Part shown: piece after piece, positions 1 through 12,644 of the stretch
Layout: every line of letters begins with the position of its first letter
How positions within the stretch are numbered: position 1 is the first letter of the stretch
NCBI GenBank assembly: GCA_025934475.1
Contig: JAICXZ010000024.1
Span: forward strand, 1 to 12,644
DNA: 12,644 nt
Direction of reading: 5' to 3'
Origin: Mucilaginibacter sp.
Lineage (GTDB): Bacteria > Bacteroidota > Bacteroidia > Sphingobacteriales > Sphingobacteriaceae
Notes under the pieces: model-generated
What the model was told of the DNA's origin: nothing
What the model saw: only the letters and a program-made list of their open reading frames with translations
Database searches by the model: none
Made by a program: the position numbers and the translations under genes

Positions 1-3000
1 GAAGCCGCTGGTTCCGGACCAGGCAGTTTGCCAGTCAAGGCCGGACGGGTAAGGATTGCCGAGCATATTGAAACCACGAACTGCATAGTTGGTGCCGGTA
101 CCAGTACCGGTATAGGCCAGGTTTGAAGAAGTAGATGTATAATAGTCTTTGAAGGTAATCGGCCCGGTATTCAAATTGCCTGCCGATGTCAGCGTTACAT
201 CCTCAGGTGCTACATACGGGTAATGCGTACGGGCTGTCCAATTGGTTGCGGCCCCCCTGAAAAAGAACAGTATCCCTGTGCCAATCGGAACGCTGTAAGT
301 ACCTCCATCGCTTGTGCTTATGGTACCTCCCGTGGTCGAGTTGGTAATATTGGTTAGCCCCAGGAAATTTCCGCTTATATAAGTAGCATCGCTGGGTGTG
401 TATTTCTCGTTATATACATATACGGAAGGGTTGCCAGCACTGGTACTACCGCCTGTACATCCGGTAATAAACGCATTAGTAAGACTGTTAGCTGTGGTAG
501 TTTGACCGGCAGTTGATCCAACGATATAATTCAAACCAAAAACAGAATTCCCGTTAACCGGTGTGCCGTTGTTTATAGGGGATGATATGATGCGATAGGC
601 TCGCTCCACCCACCTGCCTCCGGAGTAAGTGGTGCCACCCTGGAAATATCTTTCAAAAGTAAATATTCCTGTATACACATCATTTAGTCCTTGCGGAATC
701 TCGCCAATAGTTGCTGAACCCGTAGAATCTGATCGTAGCACAAACGTTGCACCGGCTTGGTTATTTATGATGACATTTTGAGATCTGTCATTATAATAAT
801 ACATCTGCGATGTTGGCCCCAGGTAAAATTTGCCTGCATTTTCTACGGACCCATAGTCGTCCATTTCGATATAGCAGGGTGAGCCTGAGGTCCCGGCATA
901 AAAAGTTCCTGCATTGGTTATCGCGTGTAAAATATTGCTGCCACCCTGTAAATACAGAATGACGCTGTTGCCCGCATTAAAGGTACCCGAATTGTAAATA
1001 AATGAACCGGTATTGTCAACCTGTAAAATGCCGTTGCCGCCCACGGTAAAATTGGAATAGTTGGTTAAAATAGCGTCTTTTAATTCAAAGATCGTATTGG
1101 GGGAGTTACCGGTAAAAGTGAGGTTAACTGAAGTTAACCCGGGATTTATGTTCACACCGCTGCCTATAACGAGTTTATTGTTCCCGGTCAATGAAAGGGT
1201 GTTATTCCCGGTAAATGTTATCGTATTTACAGACGTATTTTTGCTTACAAGCGGTGCATTGGTGGTAGCCGGTATACTTACGTTATCTGTAGTAGAAGGT
1301 ACGCCGTTTGGCGACCAGTTGGTACTTGTAGCCCAATCAGTATTTGTTGCACCCGTCCATACGTAACTGTAGCCGGCTACTACACCGTTATATACCTTAT
1401 AGGTTATAGTATAATTGCTTGCCAGGTATCCGTTTGCCCCAACTGCGGCCGACGGTGTAACAGTATAAGTTGAACCCGTGGTTTGTGCTGTTGTAGGATT
1501 TGGCGCCGTAGTCAGGTTGGTTATAGTCTCGCCGTTTACCGTGCCGTAATAAGTAAAGTCTGTTGAGTCGCTTACGTTAACCGGCGAACTGAACCCATTA
1601 ACCTTAAGCGGACCGGTGGCCACGATAACCAGGGGGGCTGTCGTTATATTGGCAGTAAAGCCCGAGGGCTGCGTCAATATATAATTCCCTGCGCTTGTGC
1701 CGCTGATAGCATATCCTGATATAGTTACAGAAATGCCAGTTCCAACATTCTGCGTTGCGAATACAGCTGTCGGCGTTCCACCAAGGGTAATACCGTCGCT
1801 GCCTATTATGCCATTCAATACCGCCGAGCCTGATATTGAAGCGGTGGTTGTTCCATCATAGCTTTTGTTACTAATAGTAATTCCGGTCAATGTTAAAGTT
1901 GCCGGGGTAATATTGGCCGTAAGACCTGCTGGTTGAGCCAGTGTATAATTGCCCGCATCGGCGCCGCTCAGGGTACTTGTTGAGGTAACCGCTATGCCTG
2001 TGCCGACATTTTTGGTTGCAAAAACACCGCTTTGAGTCAGTGTGACGACGTCTGAGCCGATAATGCCGCTCAATGTGCCGCCTGAAATTGTTGCGGTAGC
2101 AGTGGCATCATAAACCTTATTGCTGGCTGTTGCGCCCATGATCGTTAAAGTAGCTGGGGTAATGTTGGCTGTTAAGCCGGCAGGTTGGCTAAGGGTATAG
2201 TTGCCGGCATTTGCTCCGCTGATGGTATACCCGCTTACCGTTATAGCGATCCCGGTTCCAACATTTTTAATGGCAAATACGGCGGTCGGCGTGCCACCAA
2301 TGGTGACCACATCACCCGCCGCGACGCCGCTTAATGTTGCAGTCCCCGATAGCGTTGCCACGGTAGTTCCGTCGTATACCTTATTAACGCCTGATAAACC
2401 TGTAATGGTTAAAGTTGCCCCGGTCACTATTATCTTTCCGGTAACATTCGTTATATCATAATTGCTTGCTAAAAAAACGCTGCCGATTGGCGCACCTGGG
2501 ACAACTGACCCTATATAGGTGCCGACAGCGTCCGTTGAAGCCGAGCCGGTACCATAGGTAATAGTTATCGAACTTATTGTCTCTCCGTTTTGAAGTCCGC
2601 TTGCCGTAAATGCCGTTGAACCGGAGTAGCTTGTCAAAGTGGTGCCGTAGGTTTTTGAAACATTATTTGCTGTAAGCATTAAGTATGCTTTCGTAATATT
2701 AGCCGTAATGCCGGGTTGAGTTAACACATAATTGCCTGCACTTGCGCCGGTTAATGCAACCGTTACCACAATGCCGGTACCAACATTCACACTTGCAAAA
2801 GTACCGGATGAGCTAAGCGAAACAGCATCACCAGATACTGCTCCTACAAGTGTACCGCCGCTAACAGTGGCTGCGGTGGTGCCGTCATAAGTTTTATTGC
2901 TGACTATTGCGCCCGTGACTGTTAACGTTTGAACCGTAATATTGGCGCTAAGTCCCGTAGGCTGGGTTACAGTATAGTTGCCGGCGCTGGCGCCGCTTAA

Positions 3001-3714
3001 TGTATACCCGGTAACCGTAACCCCAATGCCGGTACCAACATTTTTGCTGGCGAATACAGCTGTAGGTGTGCCGCTAAGCGTTGCCGCATCACTGCCAACG
3101 ATACCATTTAAAGTTCCTGTGCCGGATAGACTTCCCGTAGTTGTCCCATCGTATGTTTTATTGTTTGCGGATAATCCCGAGATGGTTAAGACCTTAGGAC
3201 TAACCACTGTTGTGAGCCCCGAACTGAAAAAGGATCCGCCGCCGTTGTTATCCGTTATTTTAATGGTAAATCCGTACGATCCTGCGGGGGTTGAACCCGA
3301 AGTCGTGATCGTAAAAACAATAGTGCCGTTGCTCCCGCTGGGCGTAAACGATGGTGAAGTTGTTGTACCACCGGTAACGGCTTCTGTAGCTGATGTAAAG
3401 GCCCATGTAACGCCGGTAGGTGTACCACCGGTCCAGGTTAGAAGTATATTGTCGGCAGATGGTCCAGCGGTGCCGGATTCAGTTAACGAAATTGTATAAG
3501 ATATACAGCTGCAGCCGGTGCCGTAGGTAGCAGATCCGCTTTGGGTGCCATACACCACGCTCGAAACATGTTTCGCGGCTGCGAATGCAGAGATTGAAAA
3601 AACCAGGTTTCCTATGAAAGCAACTGCAATAATGGCGATCGCTTTAACCGTAAAAGCTTTGGCAGATGTTTTCAGCGTAGTTAATATACCGGCGAGAAGT
3701 AGAGCTTTTTTCAT
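1..3714 (-). CDS. Giant secreted YDG/MBG-repeat surface protein, 3' part beyond window (probable T9SS substrate)
   Basis: The frame is open without a stop from the ATG at 3714 to the left edge, giving 1238 codons; the C-terminus lies outside. I translated the whole stretch and saw no frameshift. The N-terminus has a lysine-rich start, then a hydrophobic segment at about residues 25-45 ending SISAFA|AAK, which fits an unusually long signal peptide. Residues about 54-170 look like an Ig-like beta domain. Residues 173-779 are seven repeats of about 80-90 residues, five with the N-K-x-Y-D-G/A-T signature of YDG domains and two resembling MBG domains. At 784-801 a WTG..NTDW...TNW segment starts a Gly/Asn/Thr-rich region, probably a beta-solenoid. 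The visible end has ERAYRIISSP and LGNPYPSGLDW, motifs I associate with type IX-sorted Bacteroidota proteins, so a C-terminal sorting domain is expected beyond the edge. Likely an adhesin or other exposed protein; ligand unknown. It lies beyond the terminator of the rhamnose operon and is probably unrelated to it. Confidence 0.88.
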   Translation of the reverse strand, partial: MKKALLLAGILTTLKTSAKAFTVKAIAIIAVAFIGNLVFSISAFAAAKHVSSVVYGTQSGSATYGTGCSCISYTISLTESGTAGPSADNILLTWTGGTPTGVTWAFTSATEAVTGGTTTSPSFTPSGSNGTIVFTITTSGSTPAGSYGFTIKITDNNGGGSFFSSGLTTVVSPKVLTISGLSANNKTYDGTTTGSLSGTGTLNGIVGSDAATLSGTPTAVFASKNVGTGIGVTVTGYTLSGASAGNYTVTQPTGLSANITVQTLTVTGAIVSNKTYDGTTAATVSGGTLVGAVSGDAVSLSSSGTFASVNVGTGIVVTVALTGASAGNYVLTQPGITANITKAYLMLTANNVSKTYGTTLTSYSGSTAFTASGLQNGETISSITITYGTGSASTDAVGTYIGSVVPGAPIGSVFLASNYDITNVTGKIIVTGATLTITGLSGVNKVYDGTTVATLSGTATLSGVAAGDVVTIGGTPTAVFAIKNVGTGIAITVSGYTISGANAGNYTLSQPAGLTANITPATLTIMGATASNKVYDATATATISGGTLSGIIGSDVVTLTQSGVFATKNVGTGIAVTSTSTLSGADAGNYTLAQPAGLTANITPATLTLTGITISNKSYDGTTTASISGSAVLNGIIGSDGITLGGTPTAVFATQNVGTGISVTISGYAISGTSAGNYILTQPSGFTANITTAPLVIVATGPLKVNGFSSPVNVSDSTDFTYYGTVNGETITNLTTAPNPTTAQTTGSTYTVTPSAAVGANGYLASNYTITYKVYNGVVAGYSYVWTGATNTDWATSTNWSPNGVPSTTDNVSIPATTNAPLVSKNTSVNTITFTGNNTLSLTGNNKLVIGSGVNINPGLTSVNLTFTGNSPNTIFELKDAILTNYSNFTVGGNGILQVDNTGSFIYNSGTFNAGNSVILYLQGGSNILHAITNAGTFYAGTSGSPCYIEMDDYGSVENAGKFYLGPTSQMYYYNDRSQNVIINNQAGATFVLRSDSTGSATIGEIPQGLNDVYTGIFTFERYFQGGTTYSGGRWVERAYRIISSPINNGTPVNGNSVFGLNYIVGSTAGQTTTANSLTNAFITGCTGGSTSAGNPSVYVYNEKYTPSDATYISGNFLGLTNITNSTTGGTISTSDGGTYSVPIGTGILFFFRGAATNWTARTHYPYVAPEDVTLTSAGNLNTGPITFKDYYTSTSSNLAYTGTGTGTNYAVRGFNMLGNPYPSGLDWQTAWSGTSGF
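1378..3198 (-). repeat. Seven tandem YDG/MBG-type protein repeats inside the giant surface gene
   Basis: The coding repeats in gene order are YDG-type 3198-2935, 2934-2692, then MBG-type 2691-2419, then YDG-type 2418-2158, 2157-1906, 1905-1642, then an MBG-like unit 1641-1378. The YDG-type units share N-K-x-Y-D-G/A-T near their start, a central F-A-x-x-N-V-G-T-G-I segment, S/T-A-G-N-Y (D in one copy), and end in T/S-A-N-I-T. The third unit carries SKTYGT and ends near NVTGKI; the last ends near ASNYTITY. The units are clearly homologous as protein but diverged at codon level, so this is an old domain array, not a fresh DNA duplication. YDG and MBG domains are known from large bacterial surface proteins; the assignment is by eye. 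Confidence 0.85.
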
Positions 3715-3989
3715 AATTGTGAATGTTAGGCAGGTAATAAAATTGGATATAGCTTGGTGAAATATTAAGTTGCTGTTTATGCGGCGCTCACACTTAACCT
3801 TCTTCAAAGCCTTTATACGAAAACGCTCCGGCAAAGTTGCATTAAAAGAAAATTTTTTTATTTTAAGTTAAGTAAAGCCTGTATTTAATGTGATTATCAG
3901 TTCATTAAAACTTTTAAAATAGCCGGCCTGCATTTCATAAAGGAATGATTCCGTTTATTTTATAAGATAAATTGTCACTGGACACGAAC
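3715..3989. other. AT-rich intergenic region upstream of the surface-protein gene
   Basis: No convincing ORF was seen. On the minus strand this should hold the promoter of the surface-protein gene, but I found no exact TAnnTTTG. The region is rich in A/T tracts (about 3841-3865). It contains two short palindromes: TTAAAA-C-TTTTAA at 3905-3917 and GGAAT-G-ATTCC at 3942-3952. Either could be a protein-binding site, but both are short and AT-rich enough to be chance. Confidence 0.5.
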
Positions 3990-4041: not shown

Positions 4042-7000
4042 TTATTTTTGTATAGATACAATCTGCACCGGTCCCAGCAATCCCGAAGGAGAAAGTGGCG
4101 ACTTGGCATTGTAAAACGGCATGGTGGTATAAGTATATTTTTTAGTCTCAGATGTTTGCTGATCGCCGATCAGGCGGTTTACCCAAAGGTTGGTCACCTT
4201 AACTTCGATTGTATTGTTTCCCGCCTTAAGTGCCCCAGCCATGTTTACTTTAAATGGTTTCTTCCAAACGATGCCGAGGTCCTTGCCATTGACTATTACC
4301 TGTGCGAGGTTTTTTACATCGCCCAGGTCAAGCCAAAGCTGTGAACCTTTTTTGAGCCAATCAGCTTTTACGTTGATTGTTTTGGTGTAGACAGCAGTGC
4401 CTGAAAAATATTTGATGCCGGTGTTAGCATTATCGGCCCAGGAAGTCAGATTATCAAAATTAGCTTGCTCCGGCGCTCCCCGGTCTTTCTGGAAGTGAAC
4501 CGCCCAGGTACCGGCCAGCGTAATAACCGGAGTTTCGGCATGATTAGGCAGAACACGTTTGGCAAGCATAGTTTCGCCTTTAAATACCACGAAAATAGCG
4601 TCATTGGGCTCCAGGTGCAGCGGAACAGTTGTCCGGCCATCGGCAAACGAATAAGAGGCCTGATCTTTCAAGCCGGTTTCGGGATGCCATATTTCAACGT
4701 TCCGCCCGGCGATTCTAAAATCGCCATCAAGGTTCTCGGCTTTGTCCGATCGGTTGTTGATCCAGTAAATGTCGCTCCCTTTGAGTTTGCGGTGCACATA
4801 AAGGAGGGTAGCGCCGTCATCAGGTGTTTTGTACGAAAAGTCAGGAGTAACATCAACAGCTTTAAGTGCATCGCCAATAGCCTGCCCGCTGTAAACTTTG
4901 CCCTGTCCTATATTTCTGGTGGTATTGTCAGTACCCCACAAGCTGTTGACCAACCGTGCATATTCGGTTTTATCATCATCGCTTAAGCTCGGCGAACCAA
5001 CCGGGCGCGGACCAGTAACTGTAGCGCCGGCATTTACCAGTTCGTTGATTTTTTTCAATACTTTAAGCGGCATTTCGGCGCTGTTTGAATCAAGCGCGAG
5101 TACTTTATAATTCATGCCGCTTGGCGTAATCAATTCATGATCTTTTACTGATAAAAGATTAAGTAATGCGTCCGAATTGATGAAGTCATAATTGTAGCCT
5201 TCGGGTACATCCGGCAGCTTTTTACCGAACAGGGCGGTGATGTTGTTGTCCTCGCCGTAATAGTAAACCACGTCGGCTACAAATTTACCTTGCTGCAACA
5301 GGTATGAGCTTCTGGACAAATAGCTTGTCCAGGCTATGGCTTCCTCAGCCCAGGTATCATGGCGATTGAACCACTGACCGAATGGGCCCAAGCCTAACCC
5401 AGGAATCTTATCATCAGTAGGCTGGTGAACCGAAGTGTGAACTACGAAACGGTTCAATCCGCTGGCTAATTCTAAATCAGCAGTCGGCTTCAATTTTTCC
5501 GGATAGAAAGACCATGCTGTTCCGCCAAGACCAAATGCAGTCATTGACTCTGCTGCCACCAGGTTTTGCCCATAGATATGCGCCACAGATGCCGATTCAC
5601 GAATGTCAGATTTGTATTTCAAACCATCGCCCATTACACTCGGCGTCCACATGGCCGACATTGGAATATCGGCCTTGCGCTTTACGTCCATACCATCGGC
5701 GATCAAAGCACGGCCATCTTCATGCGATTCAGAGTAACGCTTCATACCACGCTCATGCAGGATTTTAGTTAACAGGTCATAATGGTTTTCGGCAACCAGT
5801 TCGGCCAATGTCTTCCGATAATCCCACAGGAAATTATCGCTTGCTTCCGCACTTTTTACAATGTGACCAGCCAACACCGGCATCCACGGAAGCATGCTGT
5901 AGCCACGGCGTTTTTGAAATTCAGCGGCCATGGCTGGCGTCCAGTTTTGTGTGCCGGCTTCCCAGCTATCAGTTACCACATATTGTAAGCCACCTTTTGA
6001 TCCCATTAGGCCGCCCGTGGCATCCTTGTACATGTCCAGGTAATGCTCAAAATAGGCGCGAACGGCAGACGAATCCAGTTTATCCACTTCTAAACCCGTT
6101 GCTTCCTGTGTTGCCGGGTGATTGGTAATCCCGGTAAGTGAATAGCCAAAACGCATGATATTCCACCTGCCGGCCGGCGGCGTCCAGCTTAGAGTGCCAT
6201 CCGCATTCATTTTTTGTGTCAGGTCGATTATGTCCGAGGTTGCTACTGCGTCGTCAGAAGCCGGTGTTGCCTGTTTGTAAAGATCTATTGCCGTAGCGTA
6301 AGCAGCTTTTTCTTCAAACCGGTTAACAACCGTGGCGGTATGCAAAACTATTTCGCCAACGTTGGTCGCTACTGGCTTGCTCGGGCCTCCCGGGCCCATG
6401 CCCATCAATGCACCTAAGTTTGGCGGCGTAATGTTTTTAAATGTTATCCTGAAATATTTTGCTGTTGTGGCCGGTATGGTTATGGTCTGTTCCAGCACGT
6501 TCCCGGCAGGGATAAAACATATCTGTTTAAAGGTTTTGCCGTCGTCGCTTACCTGCAGGCTCCGGTTATCTTTCATTTCGCCATAGAGACCGAATGGACC
6601 TCTATCGCCACCGCCAACAATAGTGACGCCTTTTATGGTGCGGGGTTTATCAAATTCAAATTGTATCCAGGCATATCCCGCCGTAGTATCCGGCGGCAAT
6701 ACACTGGTGGTTACCAGGTCGTCGTCGGTAAGTTGCGACAGAGTAAAACTCCCGCCGCTTGATGTAACCACCGGTTTTAGCTCGCTCATCGGAATGTCAG
6801 CTTCAGGTACTTTGTAAGCGATTACAGAGATATCGTGATAATACTCAGGCGCCGTAAAAGATGCTGTACCCAGACCGAGCGAGCTTTCGGCTTTTAAATT
6901 TTGGAACGGACCCGATGCGGAAGGCGGCTTTAGCAAAGTGCCACTGAAGGGCTTACCTCCGTCGACCATCGTTTCGCTCCAAACCACTTTCTTCATCCCG

Positions 7001-7410
7001 TTTTGAGCCGGTACCCACGGACCACCACTCTCGCTCCAGCCCGGCGATCCTGCAATGGCCATTTCCAGGTGCAGCGAGTCGGCCAGCTTAGCCGTGAACT
7101 TAAAAGCGTCTTTCCATTCGGGCTTCATGTATATCAGCCTGTTCTTCACAATTTGCGGCGTCATCATGGCGGCATCGAAATTTTGAAAGCCGCCGATACC
7201 CGAACGCTTCATCCATAAAAGATCGAGTTTAATGCCTTCTTTGGTGATGTTGCCGTTCATCCAATGCCACCAAACCCGTGGCTGAGCTGTAGCCGGCGGC
7301 GATACGAATTCTTGATATAACGTGTCCGGCGCTTTCTGCTGTGCGTTGGCAGAGCAGGCCCCAGCGGCTAAAAGCCCAAGAAGGGCCAGTTTTTTAGGAT
7401 AATGTCTCAT
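4042..7410 (-). CDS. GH106-family alpha-L-rhamnosidase, exported
   Basis: This 1122-residue protein is about the usual length for glycoside hydrolase family 106, calcium-dependent inverting enzymes that remove terminal alpha-L-rhamnose. Residues 1-23 form a signal peptide ending SANA|QQ; Cys19 is preceded by AGA, not a good lipobox, so a periplasmic or surface soluble protein is favoured. Family-typical features are RVWWHWMNGN and GIGGFQNFDA near the N-terminus, GSPGWSESGGPW at about 121-132, TDSWEAG with D481 and E484, and YSESHEDG with E561 and E564; these acidic residues are candidates for catalysis or metal binding. Residues about 213-325 look like an inserted F5/8-type beta-sandwich. The C-terminal part (about 985-1110) is a galactose-binding-like sandwich ending near VTNLWVNRLIGD. 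It is the second gene of the operon after the TonB receptor and is followed by a terminator. The substrate within rhamnosides (pectin, plant glycoside, bacterial polysaccharide) cannot be read from sequence. Confidence 0.93.
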   Translation of the reverse strand: MRHYPKKLALLGLLAAGACSANAQQKAPDTLYQEFVSPPATAQPRVWWHWMNGNITKEGIKLDLLWMKRSGIGGFQNFDAAMMTPQIVKNRLIYMKPEWKDAFKFTAKLADSLHLEMAIAGSPGWSESGGPWVPAQNGMKKVVWSETMVDGGKPFSGTLLKPPSASGPFQNLKAESSLGLGTASFTAPEYYHDISVIAYKVPEADIPMSELKPVVTSSGGSFTLSQLTDDDLVTTSVLPPDTTAGYAWIQFEFDKPRTIKGVTIVGGGDRGPFGLYGEMKDNRSLQVSDDGKTFKQICFIPAGNVLEQTITIPATTAKYFRITFKNITPPNLGALMGMGPGGPSKPVATNVGEIVLHTATVVNRFEEKAAYATAIDLYKQATPASDDAVATSDIIDLTQKMNADGTLSWTPPAGRWNIMRFGYSLTGITNHPATQEATGLEVDKLDSSAVRAYFEHYLDMYKDATGGLMGSKGGLQYVVTDSWEAGTQNWTPAMAAEFQKRRGYSMLPWMPVLAGHIVKSAEASDNFLWDYRKTLAELVAENHYDLLTKILHERGMKRYSESHEDGRALIADGMDVKRKADIPMSAMWTPSVMGDGLKYKSDIRESASVAHIYGQNLVAAESMTAFGLGGTAWSFYPEKLKPTADLELASGLNRFVVHTSVHQPTDDKIPGLGLGPFGQWFNRHDTWAEEAIAWTSYLSRSSYLLQQGKFVADVVYYYGEDNNITALFGKKLPDVPEGYNYDFINSDALLNLLSVKDHELITPSGMNYKVLALDSNSAEMPLKVLKKINELVNAGATVTGPRPVGSPSLSDDDKTEYARLVNSLWGTDNTTRNIGQGKVYSGQAIGDALKAVDVTPDFSYKTPDDGATLLYVHRKLKGSDIYWINNRSDKAENLDGDFRIAGRNVEIWHPETGLKDQASYSFADGRTTVPLHLEPNDAIFVVFKGETMLAKRVLPNHAETPVITLAGTWAVHFQKDRGAPEQANFDNLTSWADNANTGIKYFSGTAVYTKTINVKADWLKKGSQLWLDLGDVKNLAQVIVNGKDLGIVWKKPFKVNMAGALKAGNNTIEVKVTNLWVNRLIGDQQTSETKKYTYTTMPFYNAKSPLSPSGLLGPVQIVSIQK

Positions 7411-7478: not shown

Positions 7479-10328
7479 TTAAAACTTATAGGTTAAAGTC
7501 AGGAAGTATGATCTCGGCGGAATAGCGATCGTCGAGTAGGGTTTATTCGCAGCCACGTCGGCCTGGTACATGGCTTTGGTGTAGCCTTCGCGATCCAGTG
7601 CAGCTAAGAATGTTCCCGGCCTTGACCAGCTCATCACGCCATAGGTATCTAATATGTTGTTGATGTTCAGGCTGACTTGTAGCTTTTTCGTGAAGTCATA
7701 TCCGGCGCCAAGGTTAAACTGGCTAAAGGACGGAAGCGTGAAGGCGTTGGCCACGTTTGCCTCGCGATCACCCATATATGACCAGGTGATAAACGAAAAG
7801 AATTTGCCTGCCGTGTACGATGGCGTTACGTTCAGGATAACGTTGGCGCTGTTGTCGGCCCGGTTGCCGGAGTAATCCACCAATTGGTCATCCTGCGGTC
7901 CGTTAGCATTGGCGATCCACACTTTGTAGGTCAGCGCCTTAGAATTCTGGATAGTTGCAACTGCTTTTACGCTGAAGTTTTTCGTGAAATCCAAATGGCT
8001 CTCTAACTCGATACCGTAAGTTCTGATCTTTTCATATTCGATTGGTGGCGAGTAAAAGGTTATGTTATCGGCATTTGTAAAGGTTTGCACGTTAGGTACA
8101 TTGCTCAGAATGCTATAAAAAGGAGTCGCGAAAAGTGCGAAATTACTTTCGGTGAATTTGAGGCCCGCTTCTGCCTGGCTCACATGCTGAGCCGGCGCCA
8201 CAAGACTGGCCGATGTGAACGCTGTGTTAGCTGCAAAATAGGTGCTCAGATCCGGGGCTTTATTACCCAATGAGTAGCGACCATAAAATGCAACTTTGTC
8301 CGATACTCTGTAATTCAAGCCTGCGGAATAGGAAAAAGTATTGACTGTTTTATCAAATGCATAGTGTGTGCCAAGCGTACCACCGCCATTATCATAAAGG
8401 GTAAGCGGGTTGTCGTCGATGCCGCCATAGTTTGGATCGCTGCTTTGAGGATTTGCGATGGCCGGAGCGGCAAAGCCTTTCACATGCATGCTTTCAAACC
8501 GCACGCCATAATCAAGATTCAGAGCGTCGGTTATCTGCCAGTTGTGGCCGAAGTAAAAGGCCAGCTGGCTCTGGTTAGCCTGGTTGTCTGAAAAACCACC
8601 TCCACCTAAACCCGAAATGCCATTGGGATTGGTAACCTGGTAAACCTGACCCGCCGTGTTCGTGAGGGTAACGTTAACCAGGTCCGGATGATTTTGTATG
8701 GTGCCCAGACCCAGCCCAGCGATCCCATTCAGGTTGTCAACATGGCTATACCCGTAAAAGCCTCCAAAGGTGAAGCTCATGTTTTTGAGCGTTTTGGTAA
8801 AAGAAAACTGGTCCAAAAGCTCGTTCGATTTATTTTTTACGTAGAACAGCGGCTCAAAGAACAGCGAATTGGCCGAAACTGCCGAACCGGGGAAATTGCT
8901 GTTGGTTACCGTAAAATCATATCCGGAAAAGGAATTTACTGTTCCCAACTGGGCTCCCGTGCGTGCATTTGTAAAAGTATAAGTACCCGGCCGGCCCAAA
9001 GTACCCAATATAGCGTAAGTAACCAGGTCGTTCAGGGCAACAGGGTATACAATGGCAGTGGTATTCCAGTTGGCATTTTTTGCCGAGAACCTTACAGCAT
9101 TGTTAAAGGTCCAGCTGCTATCAAGATGCTGAGTCCAGTTTGCGCCTACAGATCTGTCGATAGAGTGTATCAGGTTGGTTGAATTGTAAGTATCGTTGCC
9201 TGATTCATTAACCGGGATTTGTGCCGAAACAGCGGGAATCAGCACAGAAGACGTCTCCGAAAAGCCTGGAGCAGGTTTAGGATTAGTGAAGCTGAGCGTC
9301 GGCGTAAACTCGAACCAGCCGTTATGATCATCAAGATATTTACCATAGATCTTTAAGGAACCTGTTTTATATTTCTTAACGATGTTCGCCTTAAATTGCC
9401 CGCCTTTATTCAGGGGATACCCTGGATCTTTCGCACCCGTGCTATAACGGTAAAATCCGCCAACGTTATAGGTCCATGTTTTGTCGGCGCTTAATGGTCC
9501 GCCAAAATCAAGATCGCCGCGGTAGAATGGATTCTGGCCATTGCCTTCCAATCCGACTTTGGCCCTGAACTCACCCTGGAAAGTTTGGCCACCTGTTTTG
9601 GAAATGTAGTTGAAAATACCACCTGGTGCATTGTTACCCAGGATGGAGGCAGTACCGCCGCGCACGGCTTCCAGCTTACCCAGCGTTGCGTCTGGACGAT
9701 AAAAATAATCCGGTCCATAGTTGCCAAAAGTTGCATTGGTAACCGGTAACCCGTCTTCCTGCATCGATACGTAGTAATATCCTGAAGCGCCATCATTGGA
9801 GCCAACGGAAACACCGCGGGAATACACCGTATTGCGAATTTCGCCCAAAGATGAATTAACATAAACGCCGGGAATGTTTTTGAGCAGATCAGCGCCGCTT
9901 AGAGGCGCCTGCTGTTCAATTTGTTTCGCGCTAACTGCCGAAATCGCGATCGAAGCGTTCATAGCCGTTCTCTTGTCGAACACACCGGTTACCACTACCT
10001 CATTCAGATTTGAGTTGTTAGGTTCGAGTGAAACCTTGATAACTGAACGTGAATTTACCGGCACGAGCCTGGTTGTATAACCTAAAAATTTGAATACCAG
10101 GGTCCCCTGTGCCGATACCGAAATACTGTAATTCCCGTCTTTATCCGTGGCGACTCCGGCATTGGAATCCTTAACAGATACGGTCACGCCAGGGAGCGGC
10201 GCCCCCTTTTCATCGGTAACTGTACCGGTGACCTTCGTTTGCTGCGCCCAAGCCGTAGTGCCGAGGCAGCTAAGCAAGAACAGCCACGCCAGGCACTTGA
10301 GATTGAACTTTTTGTAATAACTTCTCAT
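7479..10328 (-). CDS. TonB-dependent outer-membrane receptor, putative rhamnoside transporter
   Basis: The 949-residue product imports a ligand through the outer membrane using TonB-ExbBD energy. Residues 1-28 are a signal peptide (AWA|QQ). Residues about 31-105 form the carboxypeptidase-regulatory-like domain common in Bacteroidota receptors (VTGTVTDEKGAPLPGVTV, then ATDKDGNYSI). LNEVVVTG at 108-115 leads into the plug. The plug contains LEAVRGGTAS and NNAPGG (232-237) followed by IFNYISK, a pattern seen in FhuA/FecA-type single-protein receptors and not in SusC. The rest is a beta-barrel with many alternating aromatic strands, ending SYFLTLTYKF with the usual terminal Phe. No SusD gene is adjacent. 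Being first in an operon with an alpha-L-rhamnosidase suggests that rhamnose-containing oligosaccharides or glycosides are the ligand; this is context only, and a siderophore-type or other ligand cannot be excluded from the protein itself. Confidence 0.93.
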   Translation of the reverse strand: MRSYYKKFNLKCLAWLFLLSCLGTTAWAQQTKVTGTVTDEKGAPLPGVTVSVKDSNAGVATDKDGNYSISVSAQGTLVFKFLGYTTRLVPVNSRSVIKVSLEPNNSNLNEVVVTGVFDKRTAMNASIAISAVSAKQIEQQAPLSGADLLKNIPGVYVNSSLGEIRNTVYSRGVSVGSNDGASGYYYVSMQEDGLPVTNATFGNYGPDYFYRPDATLGKLEAVRGGTASILGNNAPGGIFNYISKTGGQTFQGEFRAKVGLEGNGQNPFYRGDLDFGGPLSADKTWTYNVGGFYRYSTGAKDPGYPLNKGGQFKANIVKKYKTGSLKIYGKYLDDHNGWFEFTPTLSFTNPKPAPGFSETSSVLIPAVSAQIPVNESGNDTYNSTNLIHSIDRSVGANWTQHLDSSWTFNNAVRFSAKNANWNTTAIVYPVALNDLVTYAILGTLGRPGTYTFTNARTGAQLGTVNSFSGYDFTVTNSNFPGSAVSANSLFFEPLFYVKNKSNELLDQFSFTKTLKNMSFTFGGFYGYSHVDNLNGIAGLGLGTIQNHPDLVNVTLTNTAGQVYQVTNPNGISGLGGGGFSDNQANQSQLAFYFGHNWQITDALNLDYGVRFESMHVKGFAAPAIANPQSSDPNYGGIDDNPLTLYDNGGGTLGTHYAFDKTVNTFSYSAGLNYRVSDKVAFYGRYSLGNKAPDLSTYFAANTAFTSASLVAPAQHVSQAEAGLKFTESNFALFATPFYSILSNVPNVQTFTNADNITFYSPPIEYEKIRTYGIELESHLDFTKNFSVKAVATIQNSKALTYKVWIANANGPQDDQLVDYSGNRADNSANVILNVTPSYTAGKFFSFITWSYMGDREANVANAFTLPSFSQFNLGAGYDFTKKLQVSLNINNILDTYGVMSWSRPGTFLAALDREGYTKAMYQADVAANKPYSTIAIPPRSYFLTLTYKF

Positions 10329-10424: not shown

Positions 10425-10432
10425 CAAATGTA
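10425..10432 (-). promoter_or_regulatory. -7 element of the receptor-rhamnosidase operon promoter
   Basis: TACATTTG on the minus strand matches the Bacteroidota -7 consensus TAnnTTTG exactly. Transcription would start near 10418, giving a 5' UTR of about 90 nt. At the place where a -33 TTTG would sit there is none; instead the last octamer of the operator array ends 19 bp upstream. Confidence 0.65.
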
Positions 10433-10451: not shown

Positions 10452-10489
10452 CCGTCCTGTACCATCCTCAACCGTCCCCATCTGTCCCC
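10452..10489 (-). promoter_or_regulatory. Tandem 10-bp-period operator array upstream of the receptor operon
   Basis: Read on the minus strand there are four octamers at exact 10-bp spacing: GGGGACAG (10489-10482), GGGGACGG (10479-10472), GAGGATGG (10469-10462), CAGGACGG (10459-10452), a consensus close to RRGGAYRG. The section 10461-10489 matches 11666-11694, in inverted orientation, at 26 of 29 positions. One-turn spacing places all sites on the same face of the helix. It is most simply the binding site of the adjacent GntR-type regulator or another rhamnose-responsive factor. Confidence 0.75.
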
Positions 10490-10492
10490 ATT

Positions 10493-10507
10493 GTGTCGTT
10501 TTGACAC
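10493..10507. promoter_or_regulatory. GTGTC-N5-GACAC palindrome next to the operator array
   Basis: GTGTC (10493-10497), spacer gtttt, GACAC (10503-10507) is a perfect 5-bp inverted repeat starting 4 bp after the array. GntR-type dimers usually bind palindromes, so this could be a regulator site located about 55-70 bp upstream of the regulator start. No copy was seen near rhaT. Confidence 0.35.
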
Positions 10508-10525
10508 TTATTTTTAAAACCACTG

Positions 10526-10557
10526 TTGCACATTGGAAAAATTCTTCGTTAGCTTTG
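10526..10557 (+). promoter_or_regulatory. Promoter of the GntR-type regulator gene
   Basis: TTG at 10526-10528 (a minimal -33 box), a 21-bp spacer, and TAGCTTTG at 10550-10557, an exact match to TAnnTTTG. Only 5 bp separate the -7 element from the ATG at 10563, so the transcript probably starts at or next to the start codon. Confidence 0.65.
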
Positions 10558-10562
10558 CTTTG

Positions 10563-11588
10563 ATGAAGAATTACCTGAAGATCGTCGAGATAGACGAGTA
10601 CTCTATCACACCCAAATACCTGCAGCTGATCAATTCTATCCTGAGCGGTATCGAATCTGGCAAGATTGAGAAAGGCGATATCCTGCCTTCCATCAACGAT
10701 TTCAGCATCGGCCTGGAAGCTTCGAGGAATACGATCGAGCGTGCTTACAAGGATTTGAAGAAGATGGGAATCATTGAGTCTGTTGCCGGTAAAGGGTACT
10801 TCATTTCCAATACGCAATTCAAACAGCCGCTTAAAGTGATGCTGCTTTTTAACAAACTAAGCAGTCACAAAAAGATTATGTACGACGCCTTTGCCAGTAC
10901 GCTTGGCACAAATGGCGCCATCGACTTTTATATCTACAATAACGATTTTAATTACTTCAAGAAACTGCTTTCGGACAAAATGGAGAACTACTCCAAAATT
11001 GTCATCATCCCGCATTTTATCGAAAACAGTCACATGGCTTACGAAGTGATGAATAGTATTCCGAAGGAAAAGCTGGTACTGATGGACAAACTGGAGTCGG
11101 GCGTTACAGGCAGCTTCGGTGCCGTTTATGAGGATTTTGAAAAAGATATTTACCATGCGCTTGAGCGCTTGCTTAATAAACTGAGCAAATACACCACGCT
11201 TAAGATCATTTTTCCCGAGCATTCATATTATTCCAAAGATATTCTCAAAGGATTTATGGCCTTTTGCCGTCAGTATGCTTTCGAATATGAGATCATTCAT
11301 TCCCTAAAAAGCGAGAAGATCAGCAAAGGCACCGCCTACATCAACCTGATGGAGGACGACTTGGTGGAGCTGATCGAAAAGATCATCTCAATGAATCTGA
11401 AAGTTGGTAAAGACATTGGCGTTATATCTTATAATGAGACGCCGATCAAAAAGATTATCCTGGATGGCATCACGACCATTTCCACCGACTTCAAACTCCT
11501 CGGCGAAAAAACTGCGGAACTTGTTTTGAGTAATTCTACCGAACATATCGCTATACCATTCCTGGTTACCGAAAGAAACTCCCTGTAA
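10563..11588 (+). CDS. GntR-family regulator with LacI/periplasmic-binding-like sensor domain
   Basis: This 341-residue cytoplasmic DNA-binding protein likely controls the rhamnose genes on both sides. Residues about 8-80 are a winged helix of GntR type: GDILPSINDFSIGLEASRNTIERAY then LKKMGIIESVAGKGYFIS, matching the family pattern of G-x-L-PS, S-R-x-T-x-x-x-A-Y and G-x-G-Y. Residues about 84-341 resemble the sugar-binding domain of LacI-type regulators (alternating beta/alpha, IGVISYNETPIKKIILDGITTISTDFKLLGEKTAEL near the end, described here by its parts I-G-V-I-S and T-T-I-S-T-D). An in-frame TTG at 10533 would add ten residues but would place the -7 promoter element inside the gene, so the ATG at 10563 is preferred. 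It is divergent from the receptor operon and upstream of rhaT, with similar operator arrays on both sides. L-rhamnose or a catabolite is the likely effector by context; it is not shown by the protein itself. Confidence 0.9.
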   Translation: MKNYLKIVEIDEYSITPKYLQLINSILSGIESGKIEKGDILPSINDFSIGLEASRNTIERAYKDLKKMGIIESVAGKGYFISNTQFKQPLKVMLLFNKLSSHKKIMYDAFASTLGTNGAIDFYIYNNDFNYFKKLLSDKMENYSKIVIIPHFIENSHMAYEVMNSIPKEKLVLMDKLESGVTGSFGAVYEDFEKDIYHALERLLNKLSKYTTLKIIFPEHSYYSKDILKGFMAFCRQYAFEYEIIHSLKSEKISKGTAYINLMEDDLVELIEKIISMNLKVGKDIGVISYNETPIKKIILDGITTISTDFKLLGEKTAELVLSNSTEHIAIPFLVTERNSL

Positions 11589-11655
11589 AAAGCTGGTTAG
11601 GTTAAGCCGAGTGCCACCCTTTTGCCTTATTTTAGTAACATCAAACTAACGGTAA

Positions 11656-11693
11656 AGGGTAGGTAGGGGACAGCAGGGGACAGTTGAGGATGG
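11656..11693 (+). promoter_or_regulatory. Tandem 10-bp-period operator array upstream of rhaT
   Basis: Octamers GGGGACAG (11666-11673), GGGGACAG (11676-11683) and GAGGATGG (11686-11693) are spaced exactly 10 bp apart; a degenerate AGGGTAGG fits one period upstream (11656-11663). Positions 11666-11694 match the array left of the regulator with three mismatches. The G-rich strand reads toward rhaT, as the other copy reads toward the receptor operon. It sits 78 bp after the regulator stop in the 165-bp gap, where I see no clear terminator for the regulator. Confidence 0.75.
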
Positions 11694-11712
11694 TTGCTTA
11701 TCGTCTTCCCTT

Positions 11713-11720
11713 TATCATTG
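11713..11720 (+). promoter_or_regulatory. -7 element of the rhaT promoter
   Basis: TATCATTG matches TAnnTTTG at five of the six defined positions. The last operator octamer ends 19 bp upstream, the same distance as at the receptor promoter. A transcript from here would have a leader of about 25-30 nt, A-rich just before the ATG and without a Shine-Dalgarno sequence. A TTG at 11694-11696 is only 16 bp away and makes a poor -33 box. Confidence 0.5.
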
Positions 11721-11753: not shown

Positions 11754-12644
11754 ATGCAGGTCATTTTCGGCATTATTTACCACTTTATTGGCGGCTTTGC
11801 TTCAGGCAGTTTTTATATTCCTTACAAAAAGGTTAGGGGATGGTCGTGGGAAAGCTTCTGGATCATCGGTGGCATTTTCTCATGGCTCATCGTTCCACCG
11901 CTGGCTGCATGGTTAACCATCCCGGGGTTTGCCGACATCATCCGTTCAACAAATGGCGGTATCCTGTTTTGGACCTATTTATTCGGTTTGCTTTGGGGCA
12001 TAGGCGGGTTAACTTACGGCCTGGGTGTAAGATACCTCGGTGTTTCACTTGGAAGCACCATCATATTAGGGCTTTGTGCCGTATTTGGCTCACTGATCCC
12101 GTCCGTTTATTACAATTTCGTTCCCCAGGCAGGCAAGGACACCATCACTGATCTGGCAACTACCCATTGGGGGCAGATGGTTTTATTGGGTATCCTGCTA
12201 ACAGTTGTAGGTATTATTATCTGCGGTAAAGCAGGTACAATGAAGGAAAAAGAGCTCGCTGCTGGTCAGGCTGATGTAGAGGATAATAAAGACTACCGTT
12301 TCGGACTCGGAATTTTTGTGGCGATCGTTTCGGGTGTTTTAAGCGCCTGTTTCAACTTCGGTATCGAGGCCGGCAAAACTATGGCCGATCATGCTAACGC
12401 GATATGGCAGGCGTCTCATCCGGGTGAAGGTAACTTTCTGTTCCGTAACAATGTAAGCTATGTCGTTATCCTTTGGGGCGGATTGACCACCAACTTTATC
12501 TGGTGTATGATTCTGAATGCCCGCAACAAAACCTTTGGCGACTATACCAACAAACAAACGCCGCTGCTGAAGAATTATTTATTCTGCGCGCTAGCCGGTA
12601 CAACCTGGTTCCTGCAGTTCTTTTTCTACGGCATGGGTGAAAGC
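11754..12644 (+). CDS. rhaT: L-rhamnose/proton symporter RhaT, C-terminus beyond window
   Basis: The frame is open for 297 codons to the right edge, against about 345 residues for E. coli RhaT, so roughly the last 50 are missing. RhaT carries L-rhamnose with a proton across the inner membrane. Recognisable family features are the start QVIFGIIYHFIGGFASGSFY, KKVRGWSWESFW, GIGGLTYGLGVRYLGVSLG, and WFLQFFFYGMGES near the visible end. Hydrophobic stretches lie at about 2-22, 35-57, 70-90, 98-120, 143-158, 183-205, 233-255 and 272-293, in line with a ten-segment transporter. A polar loop with KEKELAAGQ lies at about 164-182. It follows the regulator on the same strand with its own operator and -7 element, so it is probably an independent unit that continues into rhamnose catabolic genes to the right. 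Confidence 0.92.
   Translation, partial: MQVIFGIIYHFIGGFASGSFYIPYKKVRGWSWESFWIIGGIFSWLIVPPLAAWLTIPGFADIIRSTNGGILFWTYLFGLLWGIGGLTYGLGVRYLGVSLGSTIILGLCAVFGSLIPSVYYNFVPQAGKDTITDLATTHWGQMVLLGILLTVVGIIICGKAGTMKEKELAAGQADVEDNKDYRFGLGIFVAIVSGVLSACFNFGIEAGKTMADHANAIWQASHPGEGNFLFRNNVSYVVILWGGLTTNFIWCMILNARNKTFGDYTNKQTPLLKNYLFCALAGTTWFLQFFFYGMGES

Follow-up and report, generated by a model that had tools for sequence, protein, structure and literature searches.

Two arrays of short direct repeats flank the gene of a GntR-type regulator in a 12,644-nucleotide stretch of DNA from the soil bacterium Mucilaginibacter sp. (assembly GCA_025934475.1, contig JAICXZ010000024.1), which we call the window. Our analysis indicates that the arrays are probably operators of this regulator, named RhaR here, with one winged helix per octamer, through which RhaR would activate rhaT on one side and the genes of a TonB-dependent receptor and a rhamnosidase on the other. 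The arrays have a fixed geometry, recur before rhamnose genes of relatives, are linked to the regulator gene and have half-sites that pair with the recognition helix of the protein. A preliminary description of this DNA had already placed a receptor and a rhamnosidase to one side of a GntR-type regulator and rhaT to the other. We find the same arrangement, the receptor being of the TonB type and the rhamnosidase of glycoside hydrolase family 106 (GH106).

As that description had it, four octamers of the type RRGGAYRG (NRGGAYRG for one of them) occupy the minus strand at 10452-10489 in exact 10-bp steps, and the 29-bp cores of the minus-strand and plus-strand arrays differ at three positions. 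The plus-strand array, credited with three to four copies, has three (11666-11693, again in exact 10-bp steps); the fourth, GGTAGGTA at 11656, does not fit. Shuffling the window 300 times with a first-order Markov model yielded no octamer pair at 10-bp spacing. In the genome of origin (4.3 Mb in 852 contigs, 70% complete), three in-register octamers with at most one mismatch were found solely at these two arrays, as three overlapping matches, and the reversed-pattern control gave 0 matches. What is conserved is a direct repeat; the arrays hold neither an inverted repeat with a short spacer nor a palindromic operator of the GTNxAC type, which is common but not obligatory in the GntR family. An RNA element as the reading of the repeats was set aside, because they lie 5' of the -7 boxes.

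The arrays also have a fixed address with respect to their promoters, which the preliminary description had not noticed. In both, 19 bp separate the end of the promoter-proximal octamer from a -7 box of the Bacteroidota kind. The -7 consensus TAnnTTTG lies at -12 to -5 in Flavobacterium psychrophilum (PMC9723704). If the start sites in Mucilaginibacter have the same position relative to it, the octamer pair closest to the promoter would fall at about -39 to -32 and -49 to -42. Among 48 sites found without a -7 box in the search pattern, 32 are intergenic and 16 lie inside open reading frames (ORFs); a -7-like box stands exactly 19 bp downstream of 15 of the 32 intergenic sites (the next best offset scored 2) and of 0 of the 16 sites inside ORFs. 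We also made an unbiased scan of the DNA flanking 171 regulator-family genes, a set in which some genomes are represented twice, for any repeated 8-mer plus a -7-like box. The peak, 32 loci, came at a pitch of 10 and a gap of 19; the other gaps (14 to 24) gave 8-23 loci for pitch 10, and pitches 8, 9 and 11-14 gave no more than 8 loci at any gap from 14 to 24. The gap was likewise 19 in 33/35 typed sites with a good -7 box, where gaps of 17 to 21 were tried and ties were assigned to 19.

Does the element recur in other bacteria? The preliminary description had made its proposal depend on conservation before orthologous rhaT and receptor genes, and in relatives both carry the element. The form with RGGAYRG half-sites (GG type) precedes rhaT at 7 distinct promoters, that of the window included, and in Mucilaginibacter sp. 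BT774 (locus L036) a five-copy array stands before a TonB receptor gene followed by a GH106 gene, as in the window. We scored loci that encode relatives of RhaR, the best 80 of 248, with a site matrix whose 22 training sites came from stretches lacking a rhaR gene. Matches flanking the RhaR gene occurred at 0.246 per kb (20 matches in 17 loci) and those in the rest of these loci at 0.0068 per kb (6 matches), a rate about 36 times higher in the flanks, and the reversed matrix gave 1 match near the regulator and 2 far from it. One near match, in L095, is weak and corresponds to that locus's site of the second type described below.

The usual conserved unit is two octamers. Two copies make up 20/24 distinct GG-type arrays, and at least three occur in the other 4/24, namely the window's two, L036 (five) and L166 (three, one mismatch); none of the 32 distinct arrays of the second type has at least three. 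A search for at least three octamers, which had been put forward as a check, found only 1/80 loci of relatives (L036), because most arrays there have two copies.

The gene that follows a pattern-found site was identified in 20 cases, of which 18 lie in stretches that lack a rhaR gene. Six encode rhamnosidases (GH78 in L155, L158 and L163; GH106 in L164, L170 and L179), and the others two rhamnogalacturonate lyases, two GDSL esterases, two GH39 and two GH2 proteins, one TonB receptor, two fasciclin proteins, two MG2 proteins and one Wzy. In nine loci (L039, L040, L042, L043, L045 and L048-L051) the 300 bp before rhaT contain no site, which lies instead before a gene upstream of rhaT; the gene bearing such a site is a GH78 rhamnosidase in both scanned cases (L040, L163). 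In L165 (genome G213, contig 1), rhaT, rhaEW and rhaI stand in a row, followed by an FGGY kinase gene and with lactate-oxidation genes nearby. The isomerase of this locus is of the RhaI type, not RhaA; PF06134 (RhaA isomerase), tried as a marker of rhamnose loci, had no match in 12/12 genomes, several of them incomplete. In the same locus, rhaR adjoins an NrtR-like regulator gene and a ribulokinase gene. The targets fit a Bacteroidota regulon for rhamnose uptake, catabolism or release. The earlier idea of a shared operator of one rhamnose locus is supported by the element's position before rhaT, TonB receptor and rhamnosidase genes and beside the gene of the regulator that probably binds it.

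The half-site changes together with the recognition helix of the regulator. In the 80 loci, residue 56 is N in 26 regulators, D in 47, and A or S in 7, and a GG-type site lies beside 16/26 N-type and 0/47 D-type regulators (the weak L095 match left out). The helix NTIER goes with the half-site RGGAYRG and the helix DTAEK with CATGAYRG (CAT type), at the same pitch and the same spacing. With at most one mismatch, CATGAYRGnnCATGAYRG has 6 matches in the 80 loci, all at D-type regulators, and CATGAYRGnnCATGAYRG-N19-TA has 93 matches in 66/151 family genomes, compared with 3 in the reversed control. The CAT-type site precedes rhaT in 28/30 retrieved loci and has the orientation of rhaT in 26/26 loci whose site sequence was viewed. 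All but one of the 66 CAT-operator genomes (65/66) are among the 95 that encode the regulator (E up to 1e-40; Fisher p = 5e-18, relatedness uncorrected). The sole exception, G134 (L223), has about 30 matching regulator codons before rhaT and still has the operator; this may mean that the regulator gene was lost or broken there, or that the assembly is at fault. GG sites without mismatch and with TA at the correct distance are found in 19/149 genus genomes, all among the 112 with the regulator (E up to 1e-30; p = 0.004, relatedness uncorrected), and with one mismatch allowed the 37 genus genomes without it gave 11 GG matches and 14 in the control.

Among distinct rhaT promoters whose stretch also holds the regulator gene, the N helix goes with GG/GG in 5/5 cases, the helix SRGSIERAY with GG/GG in 2/2 and the D helix with a CAT half-site in 24/24. 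An additional CAT-type rhaT promoter (L259), whose helix was missed in the promoter script, has a D helix in the survey of typed sites, and L255, a D-type rhaT promoter, has a CATG/CAGG hybrid site. That survey took one best site for each of the 171 genes: N-type genes had 20 GG/GG sites and 13 none; D-type genes had 26 sites with a CAT half-site, 3 GG/GG and 84 none; and the 25 other genes had 2 GG/GG and 23 none. Residue 58 is I or V in 24/24 GG cases and A, T or C in 24/25 CAT cases, in a comparison without the remote outlier L293 and without sites whose -7 box is poor (the source table numbers residues 15 higher). The GG clade of regulators includes Mucilaginibacter, Dyadobacter and one Pedobacter, the other clade Mucilaginibacter, Pedobacter and Chitinophagaceae; because both are mixed over species, operator type follows the protein and not the species, a point in favour of the pairing that common descent does not cover. 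Dyadobacter (Cytophagales) combines the N helix with a GG site and Niastella (Chitinophagales) the D helix with a CAT site, and Pedobacter suwonensis has both a D-type (L097) and an N-type (L113) gene; the GG site of its N-type gene has a gap of 18 and one mismatch.

Several results weigh against this account or limit the pairing. On the regulator tree (recognition helix masked; quick search without bootstrap), one clade (SH-aLRT 99) unites the 22 GG rows (20 N-type, 2 SRGSIERAY). Operator type needs 3 changes on this tree and helix type 2, too few for an independent-pairs test to reach significance. Hence, the pairing does not amount to many independent trials, as there are few switches on the tree. 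The plain GG pair occurs 47 times in 149 genus genomes, compared with 23 for the reversed control, and 21 times, compared with 9, in 151 family genomes; since this is only about twofold above the control, single GG matches without the geometry are unreliable, and the 16/48 plain-pair sites inside ORFs point the same way. No typed site lies beside 120/171 regulator genes. GG sites stand beside the D-helix regulators L279, L281 and L282, which led us to reject a simple N/D code at residue 56; residue 58 explains these cases better, and L095 breaks the residue-58 rule. In G017 (L114), whose regulator gene is D-type, a second site, of the GG type, is found about 500 bp upstream of that gene. Some of the 19 genus genomes with correct-geometry GG sites, such as G146, have only a D-type regulator match at E up to 1e-30. 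Hence, D-type proteins must either accept CAGGAYRG as well, as the L255 hybrid suggests, or share the layout with another regulator. In addition, some GG-type sites precede genes of other kinds (fasciclin, MG2, Wzy), and TTG directly follows the octamers in 3/7 GG-type rhaT promoters.

A separate observation concerns fasciclin-like genes. GG pairs, mostly with the 19-bp geometry, precede the starts of such genes in L116, L136, L145, L160, L161, G273, G275 and G277 (fasciclin-domain identity by Pfam for L116 and L145, by similar gene start for the others), and some genomes with these pairs have only a D-type regulator match.

How might RhaR act on such operators? We hypothesize that each octamer is bound by one RhaR winged helix and that the head-to-tail arrangement, one helical turn per step, would align the RhaR subunits on one face of the DNA. 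The two nearest octamers are placed as would suit an activator that touches RNA polymerase beside the -33 region. Once its LacI-type domain holds rhamnose, or a ligand derived from it, RhaR would activate rhaT and the receptor-rhamnosidase genes; in a relative, rhaT heads a rhaT-rhaEW-rhaI row with an FGGY kinase gene. The extra copies, three at rhaT and four at the receptor, may add cooperativity. To set winged helices in the same sense on a LacI-related body, RhaR would need a flexible linker, or neighbouring dimers would have to share the array as those of NanR do on (GGTATA)3.

The geometry of the promoters suggests activation, and its main rival is a repressor sitting over the -33 region. 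RhaR would then act like AraR and NanR: the arrays overlap the -33 region, bound RhaR blocks RNA polymerase and rhamnose releases it. AraR is a repressor, PDB entry 4egy being called the arabinose metabolism repressor, and NanR sets the same precedent (PMC8012715). The array does cover the -33 position, and the TTG found in 3 of the 7 GG-type rhaT promoters could be a -33 box. A repressor, however, needs neither a fixed distance nor a fixed sense, yet the gap is 19 in nearly all typed sites, every viewed CAT site before rhaT points with the gene, and TTG directly follows the octamers, where the -33 box would lie, in only 2/43 distinct CAT-type rhaT promoters, a scarcity expected of activator-dependent promoters. 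For these three reasons (orientation, fixed -7 distance and rarity of TTG) we prefer activation and regard repression as unlikely.

Could a different activator, of the AraC type or a hybrid two-component system (HTCS), bind the direct repeats, with RhaR a mere neighbour? AraC-type monomers contact two grooves one turn apart, which would suit the arrays. In the same phylum, direct repeats before genes for glycan use serve as operators of Bacteroides HTCS and AraC-type RhaR proteins (PMC3878776, PMC3870299), and the RhaR of Bacteroides thetaiotaomicron (BT3768) is of the AraC type, FucR and ManR being GntR-type (PMC3878776). Those operators differ in having an AraC-type binding domain as reader and a period of about 21 bp, two turns (PMC3878776), whereas the arrays described here have near-identical consecutive units at a pitch of 10 bp. 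Moreover, the sites cluster at the RhaR gene, the CAT operator is confined to genomes that encode RhaR with a single exception, half-site type tracks the RhaR recognition helix, and in L165, the one locus scanned whole, the 14 ORFs with 120 residues or more (RhaR plus 13 scanned) include none of the AraC type. We therefore consider a different activator quite improbable and RhaR, whose gene lies between the arrays, the most likely binder. A reading of the repeats as functionless, arisen by chance or as low-complexity purine runs, can be practically discounted: the plain pair is only about twofold above its control genome-wide, but no pairs arose in the shuffles, the spacing is fixed, the element recurs across genera before the same genes, and the CAT form exceeds its control 93 to 3.

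The features of the window are collected in the table below. RhaR combines a GntR winged helix at residues 19-81, whose recognition helix is SRNTIERAY (54-62), with a sugar-binding domain of the LacI type (about residues 88-341). Its N-terminus matches PF00392 (35.4 bits, cutoff 27), which makes it a GntR family member, and its C-terminus matches PF13377 (27.2 bits, cutoff 26.5), a GalR/LacI-type domain, which gives it the architecture of the AraR subfamily. The AlphaFold model has a mean pLDDT of 90.5, the helices and two wing strands of the winged helix are visible in it, and its best Foldseek matches are LacI, MalR and CcpA. No DeoR models were among the Pfam and NCBIfam matches of RhaR at E up to 0.001.

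Table. Repeats, -7 boxes and genes of the window
Feature	Sequence	Position	Strand	Remark
Receptor array octamer 1	GGGGACAG	10482..10489	-	start 10489
Receptor array octamer 2	GGGGACGG	10472..10479	-	start 10479
Receptor array octamer 3	GAGGATGG	10462..10469	-	start 10469
Receptor array octamer 4	CAGGACGG	10452..10459	-	promoter-proximal; fits only with a free first base
-7 box of receptor promoter	TACATTTG	10425..10432	-	full match to TAnnTTTG
rhaT array octamer 1	GGGGACAG	11666..11673	+	
rhaT array octamer 2	GGGGACAG	11676..11683	+	
rhaT array octamer 3	GAGGATGG	11686..11693	+	promoter-proximal
-7 box of rhaT promoter	TATCATTG	11713..11720	+	5/6 match
Candidate -7 box of rhaR	TAGCTTTG	10550..10557	+	outside the array; sequence match only
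RhaR		10563..11588	+	341 residues; GntR winged helix and LacI-type sugar-binding domain
rhaT		11754..12644	+	L-rhamnose/H+ symporter; cut by contig end
TonB-dependent receptor		7479..10328	-	first gene of presumed operon
GH106 alpha-L-rhamnosidase		4042..7410	-	second gene of presumed operon

The candidate -7 box of rhaR ends 5 bp before the start codon, and the mRNA may be nearly leaderless. At 1-3834, the minus strand encodes a large protein that looks secreted and contains many similar units, each roughly 80-90 residues long. In relatives, the near-palindrome GTTAACCAAAATCATTTTCGTTAAC, or a close form of it, lies between the octamers and the -7 region of the GH78-side promoters of L039, L042 and L049-L051; it is possibly a second operator in one Mucilaginibacter promoter group, and in a reading by eye it was not seen in the window. 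Four sites of the present layout lie within about 38 kb in one glycan-use region (L302-L304; G193, contig 7), and one of them precedes a gene that resembles, by look only, one for an extracytoplasmic function (ECF) sigma factor.

E. coli NanR reportedly has a FadR-type sensor domain and a pitch of about 8 bp. As is predicted for RhaR on the arrays described here, NanR is a GntR-type protein on a head-to-tail array, (GGTATA)3 (PMC8012715), and the repeat arrangement in the window conforms, as far as the DNA letters tell, to this tandem layout. NanR is a repressor that requires at least two repeats, and its dimers assemble cooperatively via a 32-residue N-terminal extension (PMC8012715); in RhaR, by contrast, the GntR domain begins at residue 19. 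The preliminary description called head-to-tail repeats unusual for GntR-type proteins. This remains a fair statement, but they are not unprecedented: NanR, FarR, NagQ and the MocR proteins are described as having head-to-tail repeats and no GTNxAC palindrome (PMC4494728, PMC8012715). The MocR subfamily (GabR, PdxR, TauR) shares with RhaR the GntR winged helix, direct repeats and, often, activators encoded divergently from the gene they control (PMC5320631, PMC4494728), and differs in its aminotransferase-like sensor and in repeats that are widely spaced or mixed with an inverted box.

AraR binds near-palindromic sites as a repressor. Its subfamily has the GntR plus LacI chimera architecture and serves arabinose, xylose and galactose genes in Firmicutes (PMC4494728). 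The AraR of B. subtilis (PDB 4egy for the DNA-binding domain and 3tb6 for the effector domain) resembles RhaR in this architecture, and 3tb6 is among the VIA-align rows for RhaR; the neighbours of RhaR are not arabinose-related genes of Firmicutes but rhaT, rhaEW, rhaI and rhamnosidase genes of Bacteroidota. The DeoR-family protein also called RhaR has operators of two imperfect direct repeats with a 10-11-bp periodicity in four taxonomic groups (PMC3870299) and so resembles the protein of the window in both regulon and repeat. It belongs, however, to the DeoR and not the GntR family, its Rhizobium member is a repressor, and the word GntR does not appear in the main text of PMC3870299; the RhaR of the window shows no DeoR winged helix among its matches at E up to 0.001. 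The GntR regulators covered in PMC5507952 are those for arabinose, galactarate/glucarate, glucuronate and gulonate.

In our literature search, which left most subscription journals and RegPrecise outside, we found no description of a GntR/LacI chimera with one octamer per turn, a fixed promoter address and helix-matched half-sites, and no GntR rhamnose regulator in Bacteroidota. NanR, the MocR proteins and the DeoR-type RhaR are precedents for parts of this system; the full combination is apparently undescribed. To our knowledge, sugar regulators outside Bacteroides are poorly mapped in the Bacteroidota. We tentatively suggest that the GntR/LacI chimeras of Bacteroidota may form a separate class of head-to-tail activators with one winged helix per turn and a fixed -7 register, in which residues 56-60 would set the half-site, copy number (2 to 5) would tune the promoter, and paralogues would run rhamnose, rhamnogalacturonan and perhaps other SusC/SusD loci.

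In summary, an operator with a fixed promoter address is directly searchable, and its targets are members of a rhamnose regulon in Sphingobacteriales, Chitinophagales and Cytophagales. The natural pair of half-site types with matching helices offers a test of how a GntR winged helix reads direct repeats. LacI proteins are two-fold symmetric dimers, and the LacI-related body of RhaR, to judge by its predicted operators, appears to bind DNA head to tail.

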